Position numbers and translations under genes: made by a program. A stretch of 51,450 bases of DNA, taken from IMG/VR virus record IMGVR_UViG_3300031650_000002, positions 1 to 51,450 of that record. One strand, written 5' to 3'. Positions within the stretch are counted from its first letter, which is position 1; each line of letters opens with the position of its first letter. The notes under the pieces are model-generated. The model worked only from the letters and a program-made list of their open reading frames with translations, was not told the DNA's origin and ran no database searches. Source of the DNA: a virus. Of the stretch, positions 1 to 37,031 are shown piece by piece.

Positions 1-734
1 GAATCAATAACCTTCTTTAATCTTTCTATTTCTTCTAAGGCATGTTCTGAATTTCTAATTGCATCACTGATTTTAGTATTATTTATCATAGCTTCATGTA
101 ATTCATTATTAATATCGTCTACAGATATCAATTCTTCCGGTAGATCTTCGATTGTTATTTCTTCCCTATTGCCGGATAGTAATTTTACTTCCCGGCCTTT
201 TTCTAACCTTTGATCATATAGATAAGCAATCTTTTTTTCTATTTCAGTAATATCAAATCCGGTTAAATCAATAAGCACCTGCCGTTGTTCCCTTCCCTTC
301 ATTTGTGAAAATAGCCGTGGATCAAAACTTAGATAACCGATAAAGTCATCTAATAGCTTTTGCGGGGTAGTATATTTTAGCCCTTTTCCGTTAGTTACTT
401 TTAGTTGGGTATCGCCGTTAGTTTTCCATATTCTATTTACGACAAATAGCACTTCCGGTATTTTCCCAGCAGCCAAGTCTTCAGGTGATAAATCTTCGCA
501 TAAAGTTACCTCACCTTCCGCTTCTTTTTCACCTTTTCTAATTGGCATAGGGGTTTCCTTAGCCCCAGCTTTCCAACACAATATATACCAAATAGAATCT
601 AAGGCCGAAGTTTTACCTGCCCCGTTCTTACCGGATATGATTATTACATCCTCTTTGGGCGTAATATCTATTGCCTTGATCCCTTTTATGTTCGTACTTT
701 TCAAATTTAATATTTTCAAACCTTTATTTTCCAC
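1..734 (-). CDS. AAA ATPase, N-terminal half (partial, runs off the left edge)
   Basis: A GTG start at 734 follows a good AGGAGG site. The first 244 residues are visible. Residues 35-43 form a P-loop (GKNGAGKTS) inside an SbcC/RecF-like N-terminal ATPase fold, and the last 50 or so residues are charged and coiled-coil-like. Proteins of this kind (AAA_23-like) are common in phage early regions near recombination genes and are thought to act on DNA ends. The catalytic C-terminal part is missing here. The matching C-terminal type (LKICVKIGMALNPKLKVLRI followed by a YQIWAEEVD segment) sits at the other edge of the window, so both pieces may be one gene of about 435 residues. A direct join of the two ends would be out of frame by one base. 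Confidence 0.85.
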   Translation of the reverse strand, partial: MENKGLKILNLKSTNIKGIKAIDITPKEDVIIISGKNGAGKTSALDSIWYILCWKAGAKETPMPIRKGEKEAEGEVTLCEDLSPEDLAAGKIPEVLFVVNRIWKTNGDTQLKVTNGKGLKYTTPQKLLDDFIGYLSFDPRLFSQMKGREQRQVLIDLTGFDITEIEKKIAYLYDQRLEKGREVKLLSGNREEITIEDLPEELISVDDINNELHEAMINNTKISDAIRNSEHALEEIERLKKVID

Positions 735-756
735 TTTTATTTACCTCCTAAAAATT

Positions 757-975
757 TTAATAATTTTGCATACCGTTCTCGGTATATAAGATCACCCCCT
801 TATTTATTTTCCTTCGATATGAAAGTCTATCATTCATTACTCTAACGTTACTCAATAAAAGATAATTTAATTTAACTTTTGTTAATTTGTTAGTAACTAA
901 TAAATTGCGAAATGCTTCCATAAAAGTTACTTTTCTTTCAGTTCCTAACTTCATATTTTCTTCAATAATTATCAA
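757..975 (-). CDS. small protein of unknown function
   Basis: A 72-residue basic protein. The TTG start is supported by a GGGGGTG ribosome site 8 bases upstream; the first ATG is 7 codons further in. It sits between two other small early genes and just before the AAA ATPase. I do not recognise a family. Confidence 0.6.
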   Translation of the reverse strand: MIIIEENMKLGTERKVTFMEAFRNLLVTNKLTKVKLNYLLLSNVRVMNDRLSYRRKINKGVILYTENGMQNY

Positions 976-981
976 TTATTC

Positions 982-1173
982 TCACCCCCTTAAAATATTT
1001 AATAATTTCTGAGTATTCTTTTGAGAAACTTTACATTTACATTGAGGTCTTTCTTTAAAAGTTAAAATATTATTAATTTTTAATTTATCTAAATACATTA
1101 TTTTTTCGTTACTAAGGACTGGAGTATAGCCGAATGTTTTAGCAATTTTGATAAAATTTTTTTGTGTATACAT
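982..1173 (-). CDS. small protein of unknown function
   Basis: A 63-residue protein starting MYTQKNF. The ATG at 1173 is chosen because AAGGAG lies 7 bases upstream; a longer reading from 1203 lacks such a site. It contains a CKCK motif near residue 45 and is lysine-rich. It is probably co-transcribed with the following small gene and the AAA ATPase. No family recognised. Confidence 0.6.
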   Translation of the reverse strand: MYTQKNFIKIAKTFGYTPVLSNEKIMYLDKLKINNILTFKERPQCKCKVSQKNTQKLLNILRG

Positions 1174-1221
1174 TGTTTGACTCCTTAAAATAAAAATAGC
1201 CAAATATCCAACCGGTTATTT

Positions 1222-1641
1222 CTAACCAACCAAATATTCGGCTTTAAATGCGAAACTGTTTAAAGACCCGCCTTTAATTCTATTTATTTTTTTAGGTAAT
1301 AATCTTAGATTATTTAAATCCCAAGCTTTTCTAAAACCAATATGCGTTGTTTTAGAATATTTATATATTCTAATAGGTTTTATGTGGTCTAATTCTAATC
1401 TGCAATCTAAATAATCCTGCCAGGTATATTCTTCGGGAATTGTAGAAATTAATCTTGCTTTTAATTCCCTTATTGTATATCCTAATATTATTTTCCAATG
1501 ATTTTCTTTATTAGATTTACTATTTTTTAAAGCCCTTCTAATCGAGCGACTTATATTTCTATCTAATCTAAATCTTTCGTCAGTTTTTAATCTATTAGCT
1601 TGATACTTTTTATAATATTCATAAAAAGATTTGTTATACAT
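1222..1641 (-). CDS. HNH endonuclease (homing type)
   Basis: 139 residues. The C-terminal half has an HNH core, LELDHIKPI followed by NLRLLPKKINRIKGG, as in free-standing phage HNH nucleases. The N-terminal part is basic and probably binds DNA. The gene has its own promoter-like boxes (1702-1730), and a terminator-like hairpin ends exactly at its ATG, so the only possible ribosome site (GGGG) lies in the 3' arm of that hairpin. It separates the repressor from the downstream early genes, as expected for a mobile insertion. Confidence 0.8.
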   Translation of the reverse strand: MYNKSFYEYYKKYQANRLKTDERFRLDRNISRSIRRALKNSKSNKENHWKIILGYTIRELKARLISTIPEEYTWQDYLDCRLELDHIKPIRIYKYSKTTHIGFRKAWDLNNLRLLPKKINRIKGGSLNSFAFKAEYLVG

Positions 1642-1676
1642 AAAAAAACCCCAAATATTCTTAAATGTTCAGGGTC
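1642..1676 (-). terminator. terminator-like hairpin abutting the HNH start codon
   Basis: On the minus strand an ACCC arm pairs with GGGGT, an inner AACATT/AATATT stem adds to it, and seven T residues follow directly before the ATG at 1641. It may be an intrinsic terminator or attenuator that limits HNH expression, because the weak GGGG ribosome site is inside the stem. Confidence 0.55.
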
Positions 1677-1701
1677 TTTTTTGGTATTCGATATATTATA
1701 T

Positions 1702-1730
1702 GTTATATCCTGTAATATATCTTATGTAAA
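1702..1730 (-). promoter_or_regulatory. candidate sigma-A-type promoter for the HNH gene
   Basis: Minus-strand boxes are TTTACA (1725-1730) and TATAAC (1702-1707) with a 17-base spacer, about 60 bases upstream of the HNH start and just downstream of the XRE stop. Confidence 0.4.
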
Positions 1731-1773
1731 CTAAATAACTAAAATTAAACCCCGAAACATTTAAAATATTTTT

Positions 1774-1959
1774 TTATAATAATACTTCTTTATAAAAATC
1801 CATTATTGCTTTTTGATATATTGGTAAAGGTTTTCTAGTTGTCCCTAATTCCCATCTTACTATTGTATGCTCTCTACAGCCAATCTTATCAGCAAGCTCT
1901 CGCCTGGTCAAATTAGCTTTTTCCCTTGTTTTTCTTAATTTGCTTAAATCAATTATCAT
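1774..1959 (-). CDS. XRE-family repressor-like HTH protein
   Basis: 61 residues, essentially one Cro/CI-type helix-turn-helix (residues about 8-40, including LTRRELADKIGCREHTIVRW). Its length fits a minimal Cro-like regulator, not a two-domain CI repressor. The ATG at 1959 has a GGGAGG site. It is the first gene after the main terminator and is preceded by a near-consensus promoter overlapped by a long inverted repeat. Autoregulation of the early operon that leads through the AAA ATPase is likely. This is inference from the layout. Confidence 0.85.
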   Translation of the reverse strand: MIIDLSKLRKTREKANLTRRELADKIGCREHTIVRWELGTTRKPLPIYQKAIMDFYKEVLL

Positions 1960-1979
1960 ATAACTAACCTCCCATAAAA

Positions 1980-2008
1980 ATATTACTATATGTATAGTAA
2001 TATGTCAA
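1980..2008 (-). promoter_or_regulatory. early promoter with overlapping operator
   Basis: Minus strand: TTGACA (2003-2008), 17-base spacer, TAATAT (1980-1985). An inverted repeat with 10-base arms, ATATTACTAT and ATAGTAATAT, covers 1980-2003, that is the -10 box, the spacer and the first base of the -35 box. This is the natural binding site for the XRE protein encoded 20 bases downstream. Confidence 0.8.
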
Positions 2009-2196
2009 CCCCTTTTTGAAAATAAATTAAAAAATGTGAGTTTGAACAAAAAATAGCATTATATTAGCTTGTTTTTTGTGCGGATTATATATAATCGCCT
2101 TTAAGGGGTCTGTGGCTATCGTAGTGGCAAATTATGCTTTTTACATACAATCATAAGCAGATATGCCTATTTTAGCGAGGTTATTAGTACTATAAA
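2009..2196. other. non-coding spacer between terminator and early promoter
   Basis: No convincing gene on either strand. It is AT-rich upstream of the -35 box, where an UP-element-like tract could lie. It holds a perfect 14-base palindrome, GATTATATATAATC at 2083-2096, flanked by partly complementary GC-rich trinucleotides. This could be a second operator. Confidence 0.5.
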
Positions 2197-2226
2197 CAGA
2201 AAAAGCCAGCTTTTACACTGACTTTT
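2197..2226 (-). terminator. intrinsic terminator of the late operon
   Basis: Minus strand: AAAAGTCAG pairs with CTGGCTTTT (9 bp, one G-U) around an 8-base loop, followed by TTTCTGTTT. It lies after the last late gene and before the early promoter, so it separates the two transcription units. Confidence 0.75.
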
Positions 2227-2283
2227 CCTGCGGAGGAAAAAATGAATCTGGATATTATAACCGTCCAGCCCGGCTTGGGGGGA

Positions 2284-2581
2284 TCACCTATTATTTATAA
2301 ATCTTTCTACTTCCTCTTTCATCTGCTTATCTAATTTATTTTTAAACTCTTTTTGTTTTACATAGAATAATAGTTCTCTTACTTTTAGTTCAACTCTTAT
2401 ATTTCCCTTTTTACTGTTTGGATCAAAACCCTAATAACATCTTAACAACTTTAACAACTACATCATCAACTTTACTTTCCGTTTCTGCTGCTTTTAGTTC
2501 CCATTCATTTAAAGATTTTTCAATAGCACTTCTTAATTCAGGGCTAATCAAATCTAAAATCTTTGAAATTATTGTCCACAT
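2284..2581 (-). CDS. small late protein read through an apparent +1 frameshift
   Basis: An ATG at 2581 (AGGAG site 8 bases upstream) opens 52 codons, ending LLGF and a TGA at 2423. In the +1 frame coding continues at once as DPNSKKGNIRVELKVRELLF and on to a stop at 2284, giving about 96 residues. The C-terminal part has no start codon or ribosome site of its own, so both parts belong to one protein. The junction is GGG TTT TGA, which resembles the UUU-UGA slip of RF2-type programmed shifts, but one extra T in the TTTT run would also explain it. The protein is charged and helical; I do not recognise the family. Confidence 0.6.
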
Positions 2582-2607
2582 GATTTTTACTCCTTTCTAT
2601 TTTATTT

Positions 2608-2691
2608 TTATAAGTATCTCAACAATTCTATCCACCATGCAATAAGTGCGAATATTAATCCCCCACCTACTAACCAGTTTAATATTCCCAT
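2608..2691 (-). CDS. 27-residue membrane peptide
   Basis: ATG at 2691 with AAAGGAGG 7 bases upstream. The sequence is almost wholly hydrophobic (MGILNWLVGGGLIFALIAWW and a short tail), one transmembrane segment. It is translated just before the frameshifted small gene, immediately after the large non-coding region. The function is unknown; a regulator of lysis or of host membrane state is only a guess. Confidence 0.55.
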   Translation of the reverse strand: MGILNWLVGGGLIFALIAWWIELLRYL

Positions 2692-3698
2692 AATATCCTC
2701 CTTTCTCATTTCTATGCACCAAAGTTATCACTAACCTCTGTTTCGTGTATGTAATTGAGAATCTAATTGTGAACTAACCGGAATTACCGGATAACTGTAG
2801 TCCATATCGACACGTTTGTAGTCATATATAGGGTGTGACCCCATATATTGAACATGCAAGGTCGATAATAGTCTCACTATTTGGTATAAACGTGTCCAGT
2901 TTCGTCACTCTATCATTCGCTAAAAATGATTATTTAAACTATTTTCTGGTAGTGATAATAAGTAATTGCGTTATTATCATCTTGTGTAAATTTTGCACAT
3001 ACTCGATTCTAATGAATGCTATAAATAACACTTTCAGCAACCGTTGAAACAGGGGACGCCATTGAAACGCCCCCGTTACTCCTTCTCCACATGGCAGATG
3101 AGCTAATATTTTAGACGTTCGGCTAAAATATTATATCGTTAAACTTTTCTTACCTGACAATTCGCCTTTTAAGACAATTTGTCTGGTATATCTGTAACAT
3201 AAGGAATAATCCCTCCAAAATATGTTATATATATATTTCCATTAACTTACTGTCCTTAGGTGTTTACACTTCTCAACAACTGTTATCAATTGTGTCCATA
3301 ACTGATAATAGCGTTGTCGCTAATTATCACAATTCGTTTTGAAAGAGAATTAGCAAATATGCTAACATTTCACTTCTACATTAACATTGTGTTAAATATT
3401 CATTTAAAAGTGAACATTATTGCCGTAGGTGTTATATCAGGAATGCAATATGTATCCTAATCCGCCCATTCCCATACTTCTATTATTCGCTTATTATCTA
3501 TGTTAGGATTTGTTTGTTTCATTTCTCCAACGCTTTAAATAGTATTTTCAAGAATTGACCACTCCACCTATCTTGGTTGTTTTCCTTCGCTCTAAGAGTT
3601 CCAGTAACAACTAACATGTATCTTCAAGAAAAGCTACCATGAGCTTTTATCAGCGGAGTGGAACGTTTAAGAACCAATTGCCTGTTTTCCCACCCTGT
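2692..3698 (-). ncRNA. large structured non-coding RNA candidate, main part
   Basis: About 1 kb with no plausible gene on either strand but many strong stems. CCACTCC 3559-3565 pairs with GGAGTGG 3655-3661 and encloses a 7-bp hairpin at 3629-3648. Other stems are: 3454-3460 with 3503-3509; hairpin 3350-3365; an 11-bp hairpin with one bulge, 3303-3329; hairpin 3276-3293; hairpin 3156-3183; an 11-bp hairpin 3104-3133; 3052-3058 with 3068-3074; a 9-bp hairpin 2953-2979; hairpin 2912-2930. A three-way junction is closed by 2810-2818/2888-2896 and contains hairpins 2824-2848 and 2867-2881. The minus strand is inferred from gene direction. Size, density and phage setting recall GOLLD and ROOL RNAs, but I cannot show sequence homology to either. 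Confidence 0.55.
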
Positions 3699-4202
3699 TC
3701 ATAAAAATCTAATAGCTAATCTATTTATTTCCATCATATTTTTACCCGTTTTTAAACAATGAACGATACCTCGATGAATCGCTTTGGGCATATAGATAAC
3801 ATCATTTTTATTTATATGATGACCTTCTGAATCTTCAAAAGATTGATTAAGGGGATTAAATCCTAACTCACGTCTTTTGAAATCATTTCTTTGGCTATTT
3901 ATTTCCCCTTTTTCTGTCTTATTATATTTTCGATTGTGTTTATTGTGTTTCCCACGATTATTTATACGATATTGTTCTATCTTTTCGAAATTATTTTTTC
4001 GATATCGTTTATCATGTTCTTTTCTTTTTTCGGGGTTATCTTCACGCCATTGTTTCTTATGTTCTGGATTATTTTTACGCCATTGTTTATTATATTCGTT
4101 TTTATCTTCCCGATTGTCCAATGTCCATTGTTTCATATATTCTTTGCGTTTTTCTTTATTGTCAATACGATATTGCTTATCATATGCTTTTCTATCGAAC
4201 AT
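3699..4202 (-). CDS. HNH-like homing endonuclease inside the structured RNA region
   Basis: Read from the ATG at 4202 (MFDRKAYDKQ), with GGAG upstream, 167 residues. The first 100 or so are repeats of a basic YR-NN-EK pattern, as in other short phage homing nucleases with DNA-contacting repeats. The C-terminus (EGHHINKNDVIYMPKAIHRG) resembles a degenerate HNH core with HH and a later H. It splits the hairpin-rich non-coding region. The 12-base sequence AGGGTGGGARAA occurs on both sides (4218-4229 and 3685-3696), compatible with an insertion. Confidence 0.6.
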   Translation of the reverse strand: MFDRKAYDKQYRIDNKEKRKEYMKQWTLDNREDKNEYNKQWRKNNPEHKKQWREDNPEKRKEHDKRYRKNNFEKIEQYRINNRGKHNKHNRKYNKTEKGEINSQRNDFKRRELGFNPLNQSFEDSEGHHINKNDVIYMPKAIHRGIVHCLKTGKNMMEINRLAIRFL

Positions 4203-4406
4203 AATTCTCCTAATCCATTCTCCCACCCTCATGGACTTAGCCACTGCAGTCGGCTACCCTATCACCTCTAAGAAATATAAGCACAGGCTTATATTGTAGT
4301 GTGATATTTATTATGCCAATATTTGGTGAATGTTTTATCACAATGTCGACTAATCTAACACTCACCGCTCGCCACCTTGCCTTCATTCGAAGTTGGAGTG
4401 GCTCTT
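4203..4406 (-). ncRNA. structured non-coding RNA candidate, 5' part
   Basis: No gene is visible. Strong minus-strand stems follow the tRNA-like element. GGTGAGTGTT pairs with AACATTCACC (4357-4366 with 4325-4334, 10 bp with one G-U). AATATAAGC pairs with GCTTATATT around a CTGT loop (4274-4295, 9 bp) inside an ATCAC/GTGAT helix (4261-4265 with 4301-4305). A TAGCC/GGCTA hairpin follows. It is probably the 5' portion of the same transcript as the 2692-3698 region. Confidence 0.4.
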
Positions 4407-4504
4407 TGGTGGAGGCGGAGGACGGTCAGCCCTCGTGCAAGAACAAGTATCGACTTGGTGATACCCAAATCCACTATGCCTATTCCTGTCGAACATACAC
4501 CCCC
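4407..4504 (-). ncRNA. tRNA/tmRNA-like element ending in CCA
   Basis: 98 nt starting 3 bases after the stop codon of the phosphoesterase gene. The 5' GGGGGTG pairs with CGCCTCC over 7 bp, followed by A and CCA. The third pair is G-U, the known alanine identity element shared by tRNA-Ala and tmRNA. TTCGACAGGAATAG just after the 5' arm matches the conserved D-analogue of tmRNA. A GUAUC/GAUAC arm and a 5-bp T-arm-like hairpin with a 7-base loop follow. Against a functional tmRNA: the T loop (CTGACCG) is not canonical, and no tag reading frame or pseudoknots fit in 98 nt. A degenerate tmRNA or a tRNA-like domain of the long RNA are both possible. Confidence 0.45.
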
Positions 4505-4507
4505 ATA

Positions 4508-5755
4508 TTAAATAACTACTTCAAAGACCGTTCTTTTCTTCCTAATTCTATCTGCACTCTTTGCATTATAGGCTTCAATTTCTGTTTCGATGTTATAGCC
4601 CTCTATATGCTCCGTATGCTGTAAATCAATTTTAATGCTATCTATCCTATTTGAGCTATAAATGATATGTATATTCTGGCTTGCCCTACTCGTTAACTGC
4701 AAGCCCCTTTCGCTATATTCATTAGCCCCCACAATAGAACTACCCCTTGCGTATACATCACCTATCCTGGCAGAATGTAAATGTCCGGATATTATAAAAT
4801 GTATTGTTATACCTTTAGCCGCATATTTGCCCTTTATCCCCTGTATAGCTTTCTCAGTCTTTCCTTTTATTTGATGTCCATGAATAAGTAATATATTTTT
4901 GTTTCCTACTTTCACGATTTGCTCCATCGGGTCCGAGTCTGATAAGAATAAGATTCCTTTACTTCCCCTGAATAGATAATTTAATATATTAAATATCGTA
5001 AAATCGTAGTTATCGGTAGCTAAAATATCATTCCAGGCTATATCTTTTGCTATCCTGCTTTCGTTACCCGTTACCCCTGCCACCGTTAAGTTAAAATCTT
5101 TATTCAAGTCAAGGATCATCAGTTCAATTAACCGGACAGCCAAAAAAGTAGCCTTGCTACGATTGGTCGCCTGTGCCAATAATTCATCAAGTCGCCGGTC
5201 GCTATTCATCAAGTCACCGGTCATAGCGAATAATACATTCTTAACATTCTTTAGCTTAAAATATTCTCTTGCCTCTTCAACGAATAATTTACACCGCTTA
5301 CTTGCTATATCAAAATCATATTTATTAATAGCCAAATTAACCAGCTCATTAAAATGCGGGTCGGTTAAATGGAATATTCCCGCCGCTTCATTCTGGTAAT
5401 TCTTATGTTTTATGGTAAATTTAGCGAGATTATACTGGTCTAAAATCTTAACTAATTCTTGATTATATTCAGCTACTGCATTATCTATCCTGGCATATTC
5501 CCGGAAGGCTTTCCGTTCTATCCGGTTAGAATCGGCAAATCGTTGTGTTTTTTTGGCAAGTTTAATATTTTCTCTTAGTAACTCAAGGTCTATATCAGGG
5601 AATTGACTTAGAATATCTTCATCTAAAAATTCTTTATCACAGCTATTACAATAAAATCTTTGCTTTTTAACTGTTTCCCCTTTTTTGAGTGGTTTATATC
5701 CTGAATATTTCCAATTACTTGAACCACATTTAGGGCATTTAATACTTAGTGGCAT
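4508..5755 (-). CDS. metallophosphoesterase with N-terminal zinc ribbon
   Basis: 415 residues from the ATG at 5755, which has GGGGG upstream. Residues 7-39 are a zinc ribbon (CPKCG then CNSCD). A charged helical linker follows, then a calcineurin-like phosphoesterase domain with DPH, GDLMNS, GNESR, LIHGHQ and SGHLH motifs in the family order. Such phage proteins probably act on DNA, as Mre11/SbcD do, but the SbcD-specific regions are not recognisable. It overlaps the end of an upstream HNH gene, and its stop lies 3 bases before the tRNA-like element. Confidence 0.8.
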   Translation of the reverse strand: MPLSIKCPKCGSSNWKYSGYKPLKKGETVKKQRFYCNSCDKEFLDEDILSQFPDIDLELLRENIKLAKKTQRFADSNRIERKAFREYARIDNAVAEYNQELVKILDQYNLAKFTIKHKNYQNEAAGIFHLTDPHFNELVNLAINKYDFDIASKRCKLFVEEAREYFKLKNVKNVLFAMTGDLMNSDRRLDELLAQATNRSKATFLAVRLIELMILDLNKDFNLTVAGVTGNESRIAKDIAWNDILATDNYDFTIFNILNYLFRGSKGILFLSDSDPMEQIVKVGNKNILLIHGHQIKGKTEKAIQGIKGKYAAKGITIHFIISGHLHSARIGDVYARGSSIVGANEYSERGLQLTSRASQNIHIIYSSNRIDSIKIDLQHTEHIEGYNIETEIEAYNAKSADRIRKKRTVFEVVI

Positions 5756-6480
5756 ATATTCCCCCAATCAATATTTTGTTATATTTTTTACTATTACAAC
5801 TCTGGCAAGTGGGAACTATATTTTCTTTTGTATTGTCCCCACCTTTACTTATCGGTATAATATGGTCTTTTGTAGGTAAATTTTCCTCATCAAATTCACA
5901 ACCACAATAAGCACATCTGTAATTGTATGCTTCTAATATATCTACCCATTCATTTAAAGTTAAGGTGTTAATAATTACTTTTTCTATTGCACGTCTTTTG
6001 GAATAACTTCTTTGACTACAAGCTTTCCCCTTTTCTGTTTTAAACCAAATCCTACCTAATTCTAAATATCTTTCCTTATGTTTCCTTTTATATTTTCTCC
6101 AATATTCTGGATTTTCTTTCCATAGTTTTTTTTGTATATTTTGAGATTCTTTCCTTATTTTTTATGTAATATTTTTTATAATATCCTTTAAGATATTCTT
6201 TATTATCTTCTTGCCATTTTTTCCCTTTTTTTAATATTTCCTTTCTGTTTTCTCGATAATATTCTTTAAAATGTTCTTTAAAATATTTTTTTCTTTTTTC
6301 TTTATTTCTTATATAGTATTTTTTATTATATTCTTTCATATAATCTTTGTTGTTATTCGCTTGGATTCTTTCTCTATTATCTATATAATATTGTTTCTGT
6401 CGTTTTAATTTTTCTTCCTTATTTTTTTGATAATATATTCTATCCCTCTTTTTTTGATCTTCTTTATTCTTATATGGCAT
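5739..6480 (-). pseudogene. HNH endonuclease split by a one-base shift
   Basis: Reading starts at the ATG at 6480 with repeated basic YY-NKE units and stops at 6088. The +1 frame continues from an A8 run (6126-6133) as KLWKENPEYWRKYKRKHKER and ends with a full HNH domain: CAYCGC, DHIIPISKGGDN, CQSCNSKK, stop at 5739. Seven A residues would restore one frame of about 247 residues. Organisation is that of phage HNH nucleases with N-terminal repeats. It could be decayed, slippage-expressed or a sequence error. It lies between the zinc-ribbon gene and the phosphoesterase. Confidence 0.75.
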
Positions 6481-8761: not shown

Positions 8762-10054
8762 TTAATCATCAGTCGCAAATGTTTCAGTCCCCTGACAATA
8801 CCACTTGTCGCCATCCTCATCATCAAAGGCAAAACTCACTATACATCTATTATTATCAGCAGTAGGAACGCTTACTTTTGTCCCATTAGCCCAATATATC
8901 CCTGCTGGAAAGGTAATCGTATAGGCGTTAGCACCTGCGGGTTGGATGATAATTAGCATATAGTTACCTGAATTAGCGGGGTTAGTAAAAGCCAAAGTAG
9001 TATTTTCTGATAAAGTTATTCTTGCTTTATTAGAATTACCCCAATCTATTGTGGCAGTTCCTTCAGAAAATTCTATAGTCTGGACAGTAAAACCTATTGA
9101 ATGAGCACCTGCATCTAATTCTTCGCCAAGTTCTGGGGCAGGATCATCAACTAAAGCCTCGATATATGTTCCTAAATCACTAATATCCGCTTCAACCAAT
9201 GCTCTACTTTCCCAGCTATCACCATCTGCAACTAAAACATATTTATCAGTAGGTGTAGTAACACCAACATCGCTTAAATCTGATAATTGAGAAGCACCGC
9301 CACCAGAAGGAGTATCTATCCAAGCATAGCCATCAACGGTTGTTTCTAATACTTTTGTGGCAGCAGCAGGATGAGCAGGAATATCGGCAAGATCAGCAAA
9401 ATCTTCTCCTGTAATATCATTAAGTAAAGTAACACTCCAGATAGTTTCCATCTCGCCTTGAGTATCAATAGCAGTTTTTAAGTAGTAATCAGTAAGAGCA
9501 GTAGCTAATTCTGTAGTATCTACGATGTCAGCACTATAAATCGTTTCAACTTCGCCTAAAGTATCTATGGCACTCTTTAGATAGTAGTCAGTTAAGGCGG
9601 TAGCAAGTTCCGTGCTATCGGTTACATCAACACTCCATATAGTTTCTACTTCACTCAATGAGTCTATTGCTGTTTTTAAATAATAATCAGCTAAAGCAGC
9701 AGCTAATTCATCGGAATCAGTTACATCTTTAATCCAGATTGCCTCCATTTCCGAGAGGGCATCCATTTCAGTTTTGAGATAATAATTATCGAAGATCCCT
9801 AAAGTACCACCTGTAGTCTCATCAGCAGGGTAGCTGTCATCACGCTTGGAATGTTGCAAAAGAAAACCCAAATCATCAAGTATTTGTCTTTTTTCATTTT
9901 CTGTTTCCAATGCATCTGCCTTATCCGCAGTCGATACATAAAAATTGGTCCCTGATTCCATTGTATATTTATAATAAGCAGCAGAAACATTCAGACTAAA
10001 CGCTAATAATATAATCGGTAATATTATCCATAGTAACTTTTTATTTTTTAACAT
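8762..10054 (-). CDS. exported fibre-like protein with 33-residue repeats
   Basis: 430 residues. Residues 1-25 form a signal peptide (LLWIILPIILLAFSLNVSA). Residues 91-222 contain four tandem 33-residue repeats of the YYLKTAIDSLSEVETIW type, which look like trimeric fibre spacers. A glycine-rich linker (SGGGASQLSDLSDV) and a C-terminal beta-rich domain rich in phage-fibre-like segments follow. The fold says tail fibre, the signal peptide says exported. It overlaps its upstream small gene by 14 bases. Confidence 0.65.
   Translation of the reverse strand: MLKNKKLLWIILPIILLAFSLNVSAAYYKYTMESGTNFYVSTADKADALETENEKRQILDDLGFLLQHSKRDDSYPADETTGGTLGIFDNYYLKTEMDALSEMEAIWIKDVTDSDELAAALADYYLKTAIDSLSEVETIWSVDVTDSTELATALTDYYLKSAIDTLGEVETIYSADIVDTTELATALTDYYLKTAIDTQGEMETIWSVTLLNDITGEDFADLADIPAHPAAATKVLETTVDGYAWIDTPSGGGASQLSDLSDVGVTTPTDKYVLVADGDSWESRALVEADISDLGTYIEALVDDPAPELGEELDAGAHSIGFTVQTIEFSEGTATIDWGNSNKARITLSENTTLAFTNPANSGNYMLIIIQPAGANAYTITFPAGIYWANGTKVSVPTADNNRCIVSFAFDDEDGDKWYCQGTETFATDD
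9389..9784 (-). repeat. four tandem 99-bp units in the fibre-like gene
   Basis: In-frame tandem units of 33 codons, each beginning with YYLK and containing a SEVETIW-like core and an ELATALTD end; the fourth unit is diverged. Copy-number change here would alter fibre length without changing frame. Confidence 0.7.
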
Positions 10055-35831: not shown

Positions 35832-37031
35832 TCATTTATATAAATTGATACTGCTAATACAATAATAACTGTTAATCAATATGTCATCCTTATAAAATTC
35901 GCTTATTTTATCTACTATATATTCCTGTTGTTCCCCTGTGATTTCCGGATAAATCGGTAAGGCCAGAACGTGTTTACTTGCATTTTCAGCAACGGGGAAG
36001 TCCCCTTCTTTGTAGCCTAAATATTTAAAGCATTCTTGTAAATGTAGACACAATGGATAGTATATGTTAGTGCCTATGCCGTTTTCTTTTAGGTATTCTT
36101 GAAGTCTGTCTCTATCTCTTGCGTAGATTACATATTGGTTAAAGGTGTGTTCTTTGTGGTTTTCTATATTATAGATATCACACAAGGGAAAATTTAATAT
36201 AGTCAATAAATCGTATTTCTTAATCAATTTATAATATCTGCGTGCCACCTTGAATCTATCACTTATCCACTTATCTAAATACCTTAACTTTATAAGCAAT
36301 ATAGCAGCGTGTATTTCGTCTAAGCGGGAATTAATGCCTATAACTTTATGATAGTATTTAGGGTCTGCACCATGAGAACGGAATAGCCGGCAATAATCAG
36401 CATATTCTTTTGAAGAGGTTATAATCATACCGCCATCTCCATAAGTGCCAAGATTTTTCGTAGGATAAAAAGAGAAGGTTGCAAGGTCTCCGTAGCTTCC
36501 GGCTCTTTTGCCGAGATATTCTGAGCCTATAGCCTGTGCGCAATCTTCTACTACTTTTAAGTTATATATGCAGGCTATGTCCATAATCTTATCCATTTTG
36601 CACATCTGGCCGAATAGATGGACAGGGATAATTGCCTTAACATTTTTACCAATCTCTAAATTAGCTTTCATATATTCTTGTATTTTTGCAGGATCTATAT
36701 TGTAAGTATCCAGCTCGATATCTACAAATACCGGAGTCGCTCCCGCTCTAACTATGCTCCCAGCAGTAGCAAAGAATGTAAAGGGTGTCGTTATAACATA
36801 ATCACCTTTAGTTATTCCTACAGCTTTTAAGGCTATATAGAGAGCGTCTGAACCGTTGGCCACGCCTACGCCATATCGAGTGCCGGAATAGCAGGCAATA
36901 AAGTTTTCTATTAGTCTTACATTATCGCCATTGATAACTATGCCAGATTCAAGAACGGATTTAATGGTATGGTTAATTTCTGAGCTTATAGAGTTATATT
37001 GAGTCGTTAAATCAAATTGCGGTATATTCAT
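35832..37031 (-). CDS. DegT/DnrJ/EryC1 family aminotransferase (WbpE type)
   Basis: 399 residues. PLP fold type I sugar aminotransferase: VITTPFTFFATAGSIVRAGA, VEDCAQAIGSEY, and FSFYPTKNLGTYGDGG with the PLP lysine. In the known pathway WbpE adds the 3-amino group to UDP-3-keto-GlcNAcA. It follows the MuF-like and a small structural gene. The reading ends with about 15 extra residues (INSYYCISSINLYK) beyond the usual C-terminus. Confidence 0.85.
   Translation of the reverse strand: MNIPQFDLTTQYNSISSEINHTIKSVLESGIVINGDNVRLIENFIACYSGTRYGVGVANGSDALYIALKAVGITKGDYVITTPFTFFATAGSIVRAGATPVFVDIELDTYNIDPAKIQEYMKANLEIGKNVKAIIPVHLFGQMCKMDKIMDIACIYNLKVVEDCAQAIGSEYLGKRAGSYGDLATFSFYPTKNLGTYGDGGMIITSSKEYADYCRLFRSHGADPKYYHKVIGINSRLDEIHAAILLIKLRYLDKWISDRFKVARRYYKLIKKYDLLTILNFPLCDIYNIENHKEHTFNQYVIYARDRDRLQEYLKENGIGTNIYYPLCLHLQECFKYLGYKEGDFPVAENASKHVLALPIYPEITGEQQEYIVDKISEFYKDDILINSYYCISSINLYK

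Follow-up and report, generated by a model that had tools for sequence, protein, structure and literature searches.

We find that a 51,450-base stretch of viral DNA, IMG/VR record IMGVR_UViG_3300031650_000002 (the window, by which we mean the whole stretch analyzed), encodes on its minus strand a small RNA of 98 nucleotides (nt) that is very probably a divergent transfer-messenger RNA (tmRNA) consisting of its tRNA-like domain (TLD) only. The window comes from a tailed phage, as judged by its portal and terminase genes. The element is real and belongs to a family of phage-encoded RNAs with a common sequence pattern and fold, in which selection acts on the G3-U70 pair of the acceptor stem, on helix P2, and on the elbow. 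The fuller statement, that a message-less phage tmRNA is processed, charged with alanine, and serves as a decoy that blunts the ribosome rescue of the host, has in our estimate about an even chance of being right.

Read from 4504 down to 4407 on the minus strand, the element runs GGGGGUG UAUG UUCGA CAGGAAUAGG...GAGGG CUGACCG UCCUC CGCCUCC A CCA. Its parts are as follows (R1 is a covariance model, A2 a family alignment, and L113 a related contig).

4407..4504, minus strand: TLD-only tmRNA, whole, 98 nt (fold, R1, syntenic L113 homologue).
4498..4504, minus strand: 5′ strand of the acceptor, GGGGGUG, with G3 at base 4502 (sequence and fold).
4494..4497, minus strand: D loop UAUG, shortened (relatives: ..GGU) (sequence, comparison with L113 and A2).
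4489..4493, minus strand: UUCGA, conserved in the tmRNA 5′ domain (sequence; near-invariant in A2).
4479..4488, minus strand: 5′ strand of P2, CAGGAAUAGG (fold; P2 covariation across 139 relatives).
4450..4474, minus strand: extra apical hairpin that caps P2 and replaces the mRNA-like region and pseudoknots (fold).
4438..4447, minus strand: 3′ strand of P2, CUUGUUCUUG (fold).
4418..4434, minus strand: T-arm-like hairpin GAGGG-CUGACCG-UCCUC with a non-canonical T loop (sequence and fold).
4411..4417, minus strand: 3′ strand of the acceptor, CGCCUCC, with U70 at base 4413 (sequence).
4407..4410, minus strand: discriminator A73 and encoded CCA (sequence).

All seven acceptor pairs are formed (7/7), with G3 (4502) opposite U70 (4413). 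UUCGAC and the 10-bp P2 (4493-4479) are present by sequence, R1 alignment, and fold, and in the minimum-energy fold of the element (-39.2 kcal/mol, z = -2.8) the acceptor, P2, and the T-arm hairpin make up the three-way TLD of tmRNA. The tag reading frame and the pseudoknots are absent: the 71 nt that separate UUCGA from the 3′ acceptor strand fold as P2, apical hairpin, and T arm, and ARAGORN reports no tmRNA, tRNA, or tag in the window. An initial annotation, made from the letters of the window, had described a tmRNA-like element with a 7-bp alanine-type acceptor, discriminator A, and encoded CCA, lacking the usual tag frame and pseudoknots and having an unusual T loop. Each of these features is borne out; the T loop, CUGACCG, lies outside the canonical UUCRANY.

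The window contains 97 instances of a 7-bp stem followed by CCA, where 96 would be expected, and because the count is at the chance level, stem and CCA by themselves are noise. When a 5-bp T stem is added, 2 occurrences are left (about 1 expected); when UUCGA near the 5′ end is added as well, this element alone is left, with none in 40 simulated windows. That an unrelated structured RNA came by its tRNA-like features by accident would agree with the chance-level frequency of acceptor plus CCA, but it is extremely improbable in view of the full combination (0/40), an independent match to R1, and the syntenic homologue in L113.

That homologue is the strongest evidence for the relationship of the window copy to the family. 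A search with the exonuclease-like protein (phrog_284) encoded beside the element yields a single relative contig, L113 (88% protein identity), in which a 135-nt element lies 3 nt past the matching stop codon. The two elements have an identical acceptor (GGGGGUG/CGCCUCC), G3-U70, and CCA, and differ in their interior; conserved ends with a swapped interior would follow from the tRNA-like domain being the part that counts. The L113 element has the tmRNA D loop AAGGUUUCGA and a canonical T arm (UCGGG-UUCGAUU-CCCGA). The Rfam tmRNA model scores it at 51.7 bits (E 2.5e-19; cut-off 47) and aligns it as a tmRNA minus the whole middle; ARAGORN reports nothing on L113. In a targeted scan, closer kin of the window copy were just the four already known. 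We also searched IMG/VR for an exact 15-mer, GTTCGACAGGAATAG, and every one of its 22 matches was unrelated.

Model searches point the same way, with less force. R1 was built from 45 unrelated family RNAs, window excluded, and matches the window element over its full length with 26.8 bits (E = 1.6e-4; runner-up place in the window, 12.2 bits), a score that is supportive, not decisive, because R1 yields 26-40 bits for the T arms of full tmRNAs and for tRNAs. The L113 element scores 51.4 bits. The Rfam models do not report the window element, and positions 1-5000 searched at E 5 match neither GOLLD, ROOL, nor other giant RNAs in Rfam; for lack of a model match, we rejected the readings of the element as GOLLD, ROOL, a group I intron, or another Rfam RNA.

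How widespread are such RNAs? Pattern scans find at least about 150 distinct TLD-only tmRNAs in IMG/VR viral contigs, 74-137 nt long. In the scans for short TLDs, a match qualifies if its acceptor and T stem are perfect. A longer-span pattern gives 87 stretches, of which 15 qualify; a shorter-span pattern gives at least 119 matches, and among the matches listed 84/119 qualify (81 distinct). The lengths of the qualifying RNAs peak at 77-83 nt. With the same short pattern, 0/118 qualify among the matches listed in GTDB cellular genomes. A model search of GTDB genomes returns one clear TLD-only RNA, which lies inside a prophage (L558, region of G504:C48, a Clostridia-related genome) beside tRNA-Pro, tRNA-Met, and tRNA-Ile and upstream of terminase genes; a prophage of this type is a possible route to a culturable carrier. 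The Rfam tmRNA model scores the relatives tested at 51-75 bits (L113, L162, and L143 included, above the cut-off of 47), and ARAGORN reports 0 among the TLD-only relatives checked. Among isolated phages, four family members used as blastn queries match T arms only, and the ten matches inspected fit full tmRNAs better than TLD-only forms. The carriers checked have terminase, HNH, and nucleotide-metabolism genes of tailed phages. Of the 25 carrier records searched, many of which are fragments, none has an SmpB gene, and therefore host SmpB would be used. Most relatives are located between genes or within tRNA clusters: a tRNA begins 4 nt past the TLD in L160/L165 (read by eye) and 3 nt past it in L202, and further tRNA-like sequences follow the TLD in L159 (read by eye).

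Selection on the alanine identity element is seen in a scan blind to the acceptor, anchored on UUCGAC, GGAC, and the T arm only, which gives 90 distinct matches, 87 of them with a near-perfect acceptor stem. The third pair is G-U in 86/87, and the fourth pair (4-69) varies freely (G-C, C-G, A-U, U-A). A73 is present nearly always; CCA is encoded in just 21/87. Overall, 138/139 distinct RNAs retain G3-U70. The initial annotation had named two outcomes as telling against it, namely that models score the element as noise and that homologues lose G3-U70 or CCA. The former is what the general models (ARAGORN, Rfam) return; as to the latter, homologues keep G3-U70 and the acceptor. P2, which never served as a selection criterion, is 94% paired in register versus 28-54% when shifted (139 RNAs), with many double, compensatory changes.

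The elbow of a tRNA is held by the contacts G19-C56 and G18-psi55. Among the TLD-only RNAs, A19 accompanies U56 in 9/9 cases and A18 accompanies G55 in 12/12, and U56 and G55 are seen only in these combinations (Fisher p 1.7e-6, a naive value that ignores relatedness). Because the covarying positions are those of the tRNA contacts, an L-shaped elbow appears to be maintained by selection in the family. A subgroup with an altered elbow has the T loop GGCAGUA or GGCGGAA and D-loop AG for GG (L208, L243, L251, L261, L268, L282).

What might such an RNA do? Trans-translation is nearly universal in bacteria, and full tmRNAs are carried by phages. The RNA of the window would be the tRNA-like domain of a tmRNA that has closed P2 with a short hairpin and lost its tag frame and pseudoknots. 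It would be transcribed behind the exonuclease gene and excised from the transcript, its 5′ end probably by RNase P, and host alanyl-tRNA synthetase (AlaRS) would charge it with alanine via G3-U70. Charged or uncharged, it would then rival host tmRNA for SmpB, EF-Tu, and stalled ribosomes, with SmpB, AlaRS, and EF-Tu as likely decoy targets, and host ribosome rescue, tagging, and nonstop-mRNA decay would be dampened during infection. A TLD-only RNA would blunt rescue because trans-translation cannot be completed without a template. An acceptor minihelix with G3-U70 is enough for AlaRS, so the window copy should stay chargeable with alanine. A very short tag (GCR GAR UAR) in the P2 5′ strand of L113, L143, and L162 was considered and not adopted; it coincides with a base-paired helix and is not a general feature of the family.

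The closest precedent is mycobacteriophage DS6A (tmRNA Website tmID 11587), the one published case of a TLD-only tmRNA (PMC4131195, PMC11915505). RNA of the DS6A type, charged or not, is reported to inhibit endogenous tmRNA strongly when expressed in E. coli, and titration of SmpB may be the cause (PMC4131195, PMC11915505). Because of this inhibition, a decoy is the best current explanation of the phage family, and we put the chance that the RNA functions by blunting host trans-translation at slightly less than even.

Several points weigh against the decoy reading or the assignment beneath it, in addition to the R1 scores of full-tmRNA T arms and tRNAs given above. The Rfam tmRNA model RF00023 is blind to the window element even at E 10 (cut-off 47 bits). 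The loops of the window copy (T loop CUGACCG, D loop UAUG) depart from the family norm, and the copy lacks the elbow signature (D-loop GG, T loop UUCRANY) that L113 and most relatives have; because the canonical T loop and the D-loop GG are lost, SmpB binding by the window copy is doubtful. Processing, charging, and the decoy role are steps that we infer, and some relatives could aid rescue instead of blocking it. The altered T and D loops and the silence of Rfam and ARAGORN would also suit a window copy that is losing function, as the remnant of a tmRNA or as an attachment-site fragment. This is very unlikely: the acceptor, the 10-bp P2, and the T stem are all intact, L113 retains the element in the same location, though with another interior, and the window has both ends, whereas attachment sites copy the tmRNA 3′ end only.

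The main rivals of a decoy for trans-translation are a helper and a decoy for another factor. As a helper, the alanine-charged TLD with host SmpB would enter stalled ribosomes and bring about a tagless release, a mode of action proposed for the mitochondrial tmRNA that lacks a tag frame, sustaining phage translation. The whole TLD is under selection in carriers, and the tag frame is also missing in mitochondrial and some plastid tmRNAs, of which the mitochondrial form persists with SmpB (PMC11915505). We nevertheless regard a helper as unlikely, since the sole phage TLD-only RNA tested inhibits tmRNA (PMC11915505). Peptide release by a TLD without a stop codon, moreover, has no known route. 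Alternatively, a mimic of alanyl-tRNA or tmRNA could soak up a host defence toxin or an enzyme acting on alanyl-tRNA, tmRNA, or CCA ends. The most constrained features, G3-U70 and A73, would fit such a mimic, as would the tRNA-bearing phages among the carriers and the window copy, which retains the acceptor and not the elbow. P2 and UUCGA, however, which are tmRNA-specific and on the SmpB side, are likewise strongly conserved, and no such toxin was identified in this analysis; we consider this possibility quite unlikely.

The position of the TLD relative to coding sequence bears on a further alternative. An upstream open reading frame (ORF) of at least 60 codons ends no more than 10 nt before the TLD in 39/143 placed TLDs, and at about 20 loci a UAG stop codon contributes its G as G1 of the TLD (L205, L206, L216, L219, L228, L241, L249, L263, L279, L298, L308, L310, L312, L317, L450, L453, L463, L500, L501, L536, L546). 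RNase P cleavage would therefore fall inside the stop codon. Both figures would suit a mere processing mark, i.e., tRNA-like punctuation that directs RNase P and 3′ nucleases to cut a polycistronic phage mRNA, but cleavage by itself needs no G3-U70, A73, tmRNA UUCGA, or P2, and many TLDs do not abut an ORF stop; we give this explanation only a slim chance. It is tempting to combine these observations with the decoy reading. Many uncultured tailed phages would then encode an RNA-only rescue inhibitor; in part of them an RNase P cut at G1 would split the upstream UAG, creating a nonstop mRNA and tying expression to ribosome rescue; and the copy in the window would represent a derivative that accepts alanine and no longer has the elbow for SmpB. 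To this combined scenario as a whole we attach little probability.

The surroundings of the element in the window contain the following features.

4508..5767, minus strand: exonuclease-like gene, phrog_284, with its UAA stop at 4508-4510, 3 nt ahead of TLD G1, an arrangement common to L113.
3699..4244, minus strand: homing-endonuclease-like ORF (weak assignment) that separates the TLD from the noncoding blocks downstream.
3229..3554, minus strand: noncoding stretch with blocks kept downstream of the L162 TLD (79% identity over 3229-3351).
3079..3102, minus strand: hairpin motif CUCAU..AAGGAG in the downstream noncoding RNA, common to SPbeta and other phages.

Throughout the phage group of the window, the TLD sits past a stop codon and is preceded by UAAUAU or a similar leader. 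The initial annotation had placed the element at the head of a giant RNA. Locally this holds, in that conserved noncoding blocks follow the TLD in the window, in L162 (79% identity over 123 nt), and in L143 (79% over 97 nt), and are only weakly kept in L113 and L160/L165; it does not extend to most relatives, with their intergenic or tRNA-cluster locations. The idea that a TLD always heads a giant RNA was rejected: at 88 loci with the downstream hairpin, R1 gives three weak matches (28-33 bits, the tRNA range), the best of which is a tRNA-Ala. Because there were just these three, we take the link between the TLD and the downstream RNA to be confined to the phage group of the window.

Different homing-endonuclease-like ORFs break the same noncoding blocks in the window (3699-4244) and in L162, as though such ORFs were inserted into the RNA and lost from it again. 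In L113, about 70 nt downstream of the TLD (9465-9503), there is a near-cut-off match to abiF RNA (36.1 versus 37 bits, E=1e-4), possibly a mimic of the RNA partner of the AbiF defence protein. The hairpin CUCAU-[CUGC CANNY GYAG]-AAGGAG (window 3079-3102, minus strand; L023 4016-4039; L024 4004-4027) occurs in 88 stretches, among them long noncoding stretches of SPbeta-type phages (the gap of 1.7 kb between yonN and yonK), of a Vibrio phage, and of phage tRNA arrays. It has covarying stem variants (GUAC..GUAC and CUAC..GUAG) and no Rfam match. In SPbeta-type phages the hairpin is followed, about 120-180 nt further downstream, by the Rfam DUF3800-VIII RNA (L023 4194-4259; L046, L059, L069, L079, L090, L099, L102). 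Elsewhere in the window, an aminotransferase-like phage protein (phrog_3139) is encoded within the structural gene region (35832-37031).

Compared with known systems, the window element resembles the DS6A RNA, by its published description, in being a phage TLD-only tmRNA, and differs in its 98-nt length, long P2 with apical hairpin, non-canonical elbow, and phage group. With the one-piece bacterial tmRNA of RF00023 the phage family has in common the G3-U70 acceptor, A73, CCA, UUCGA, P2, GGAC, and the T arm; the phage forms, however, lack tag frame and pseudoknots and are 74-137 nt long versus about 350, and the window copy falls below the cut-off. Mitochondrial tmRNA (RF02544) and the plastid tmRNA of Mallomonadaceae, which is without a coding sequence, have likewise retained the TLD and lost the tag frame (PMC11915505). 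The mitochondrial form works with a nuclear SmpB partner, whereas short P2 caps are encoded in the phage forms, many of which stand in operons. A tRNA-Ala also has G3-U70, A73, and CCA; the window element differs in having no anticodon arm and in its tmRNA-type UUCGA and P2, and ARAGORN calls no tRNA.

The complete novelty that the initial annotation had proposed is not upheld, since a message-less phage tmRNA was already known from one phage, DS6A; nor is the window element a lone oddity. In the literature searched, mostly non-subscription papers, we found no description of how broadly the family occurs in uncultured phages, of its strict G3-U70, of the covarying elbow, or of TLDs that abut stop codons. 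The family is easily overlooked: ARAGORN misses the members checked, and the Rfam label would be plain tmRNA. Small natural TLDs with varied elbows are material for studies of recognition by AlaRS, SmpB, and EF-Tu. With at least about 150 TLD-only tmRNAs under selection for alanine identity and elbow, anti-rescue RNA becomes a testable phage strategy, and the family suggests widespread viral interference with ribosome rescue.
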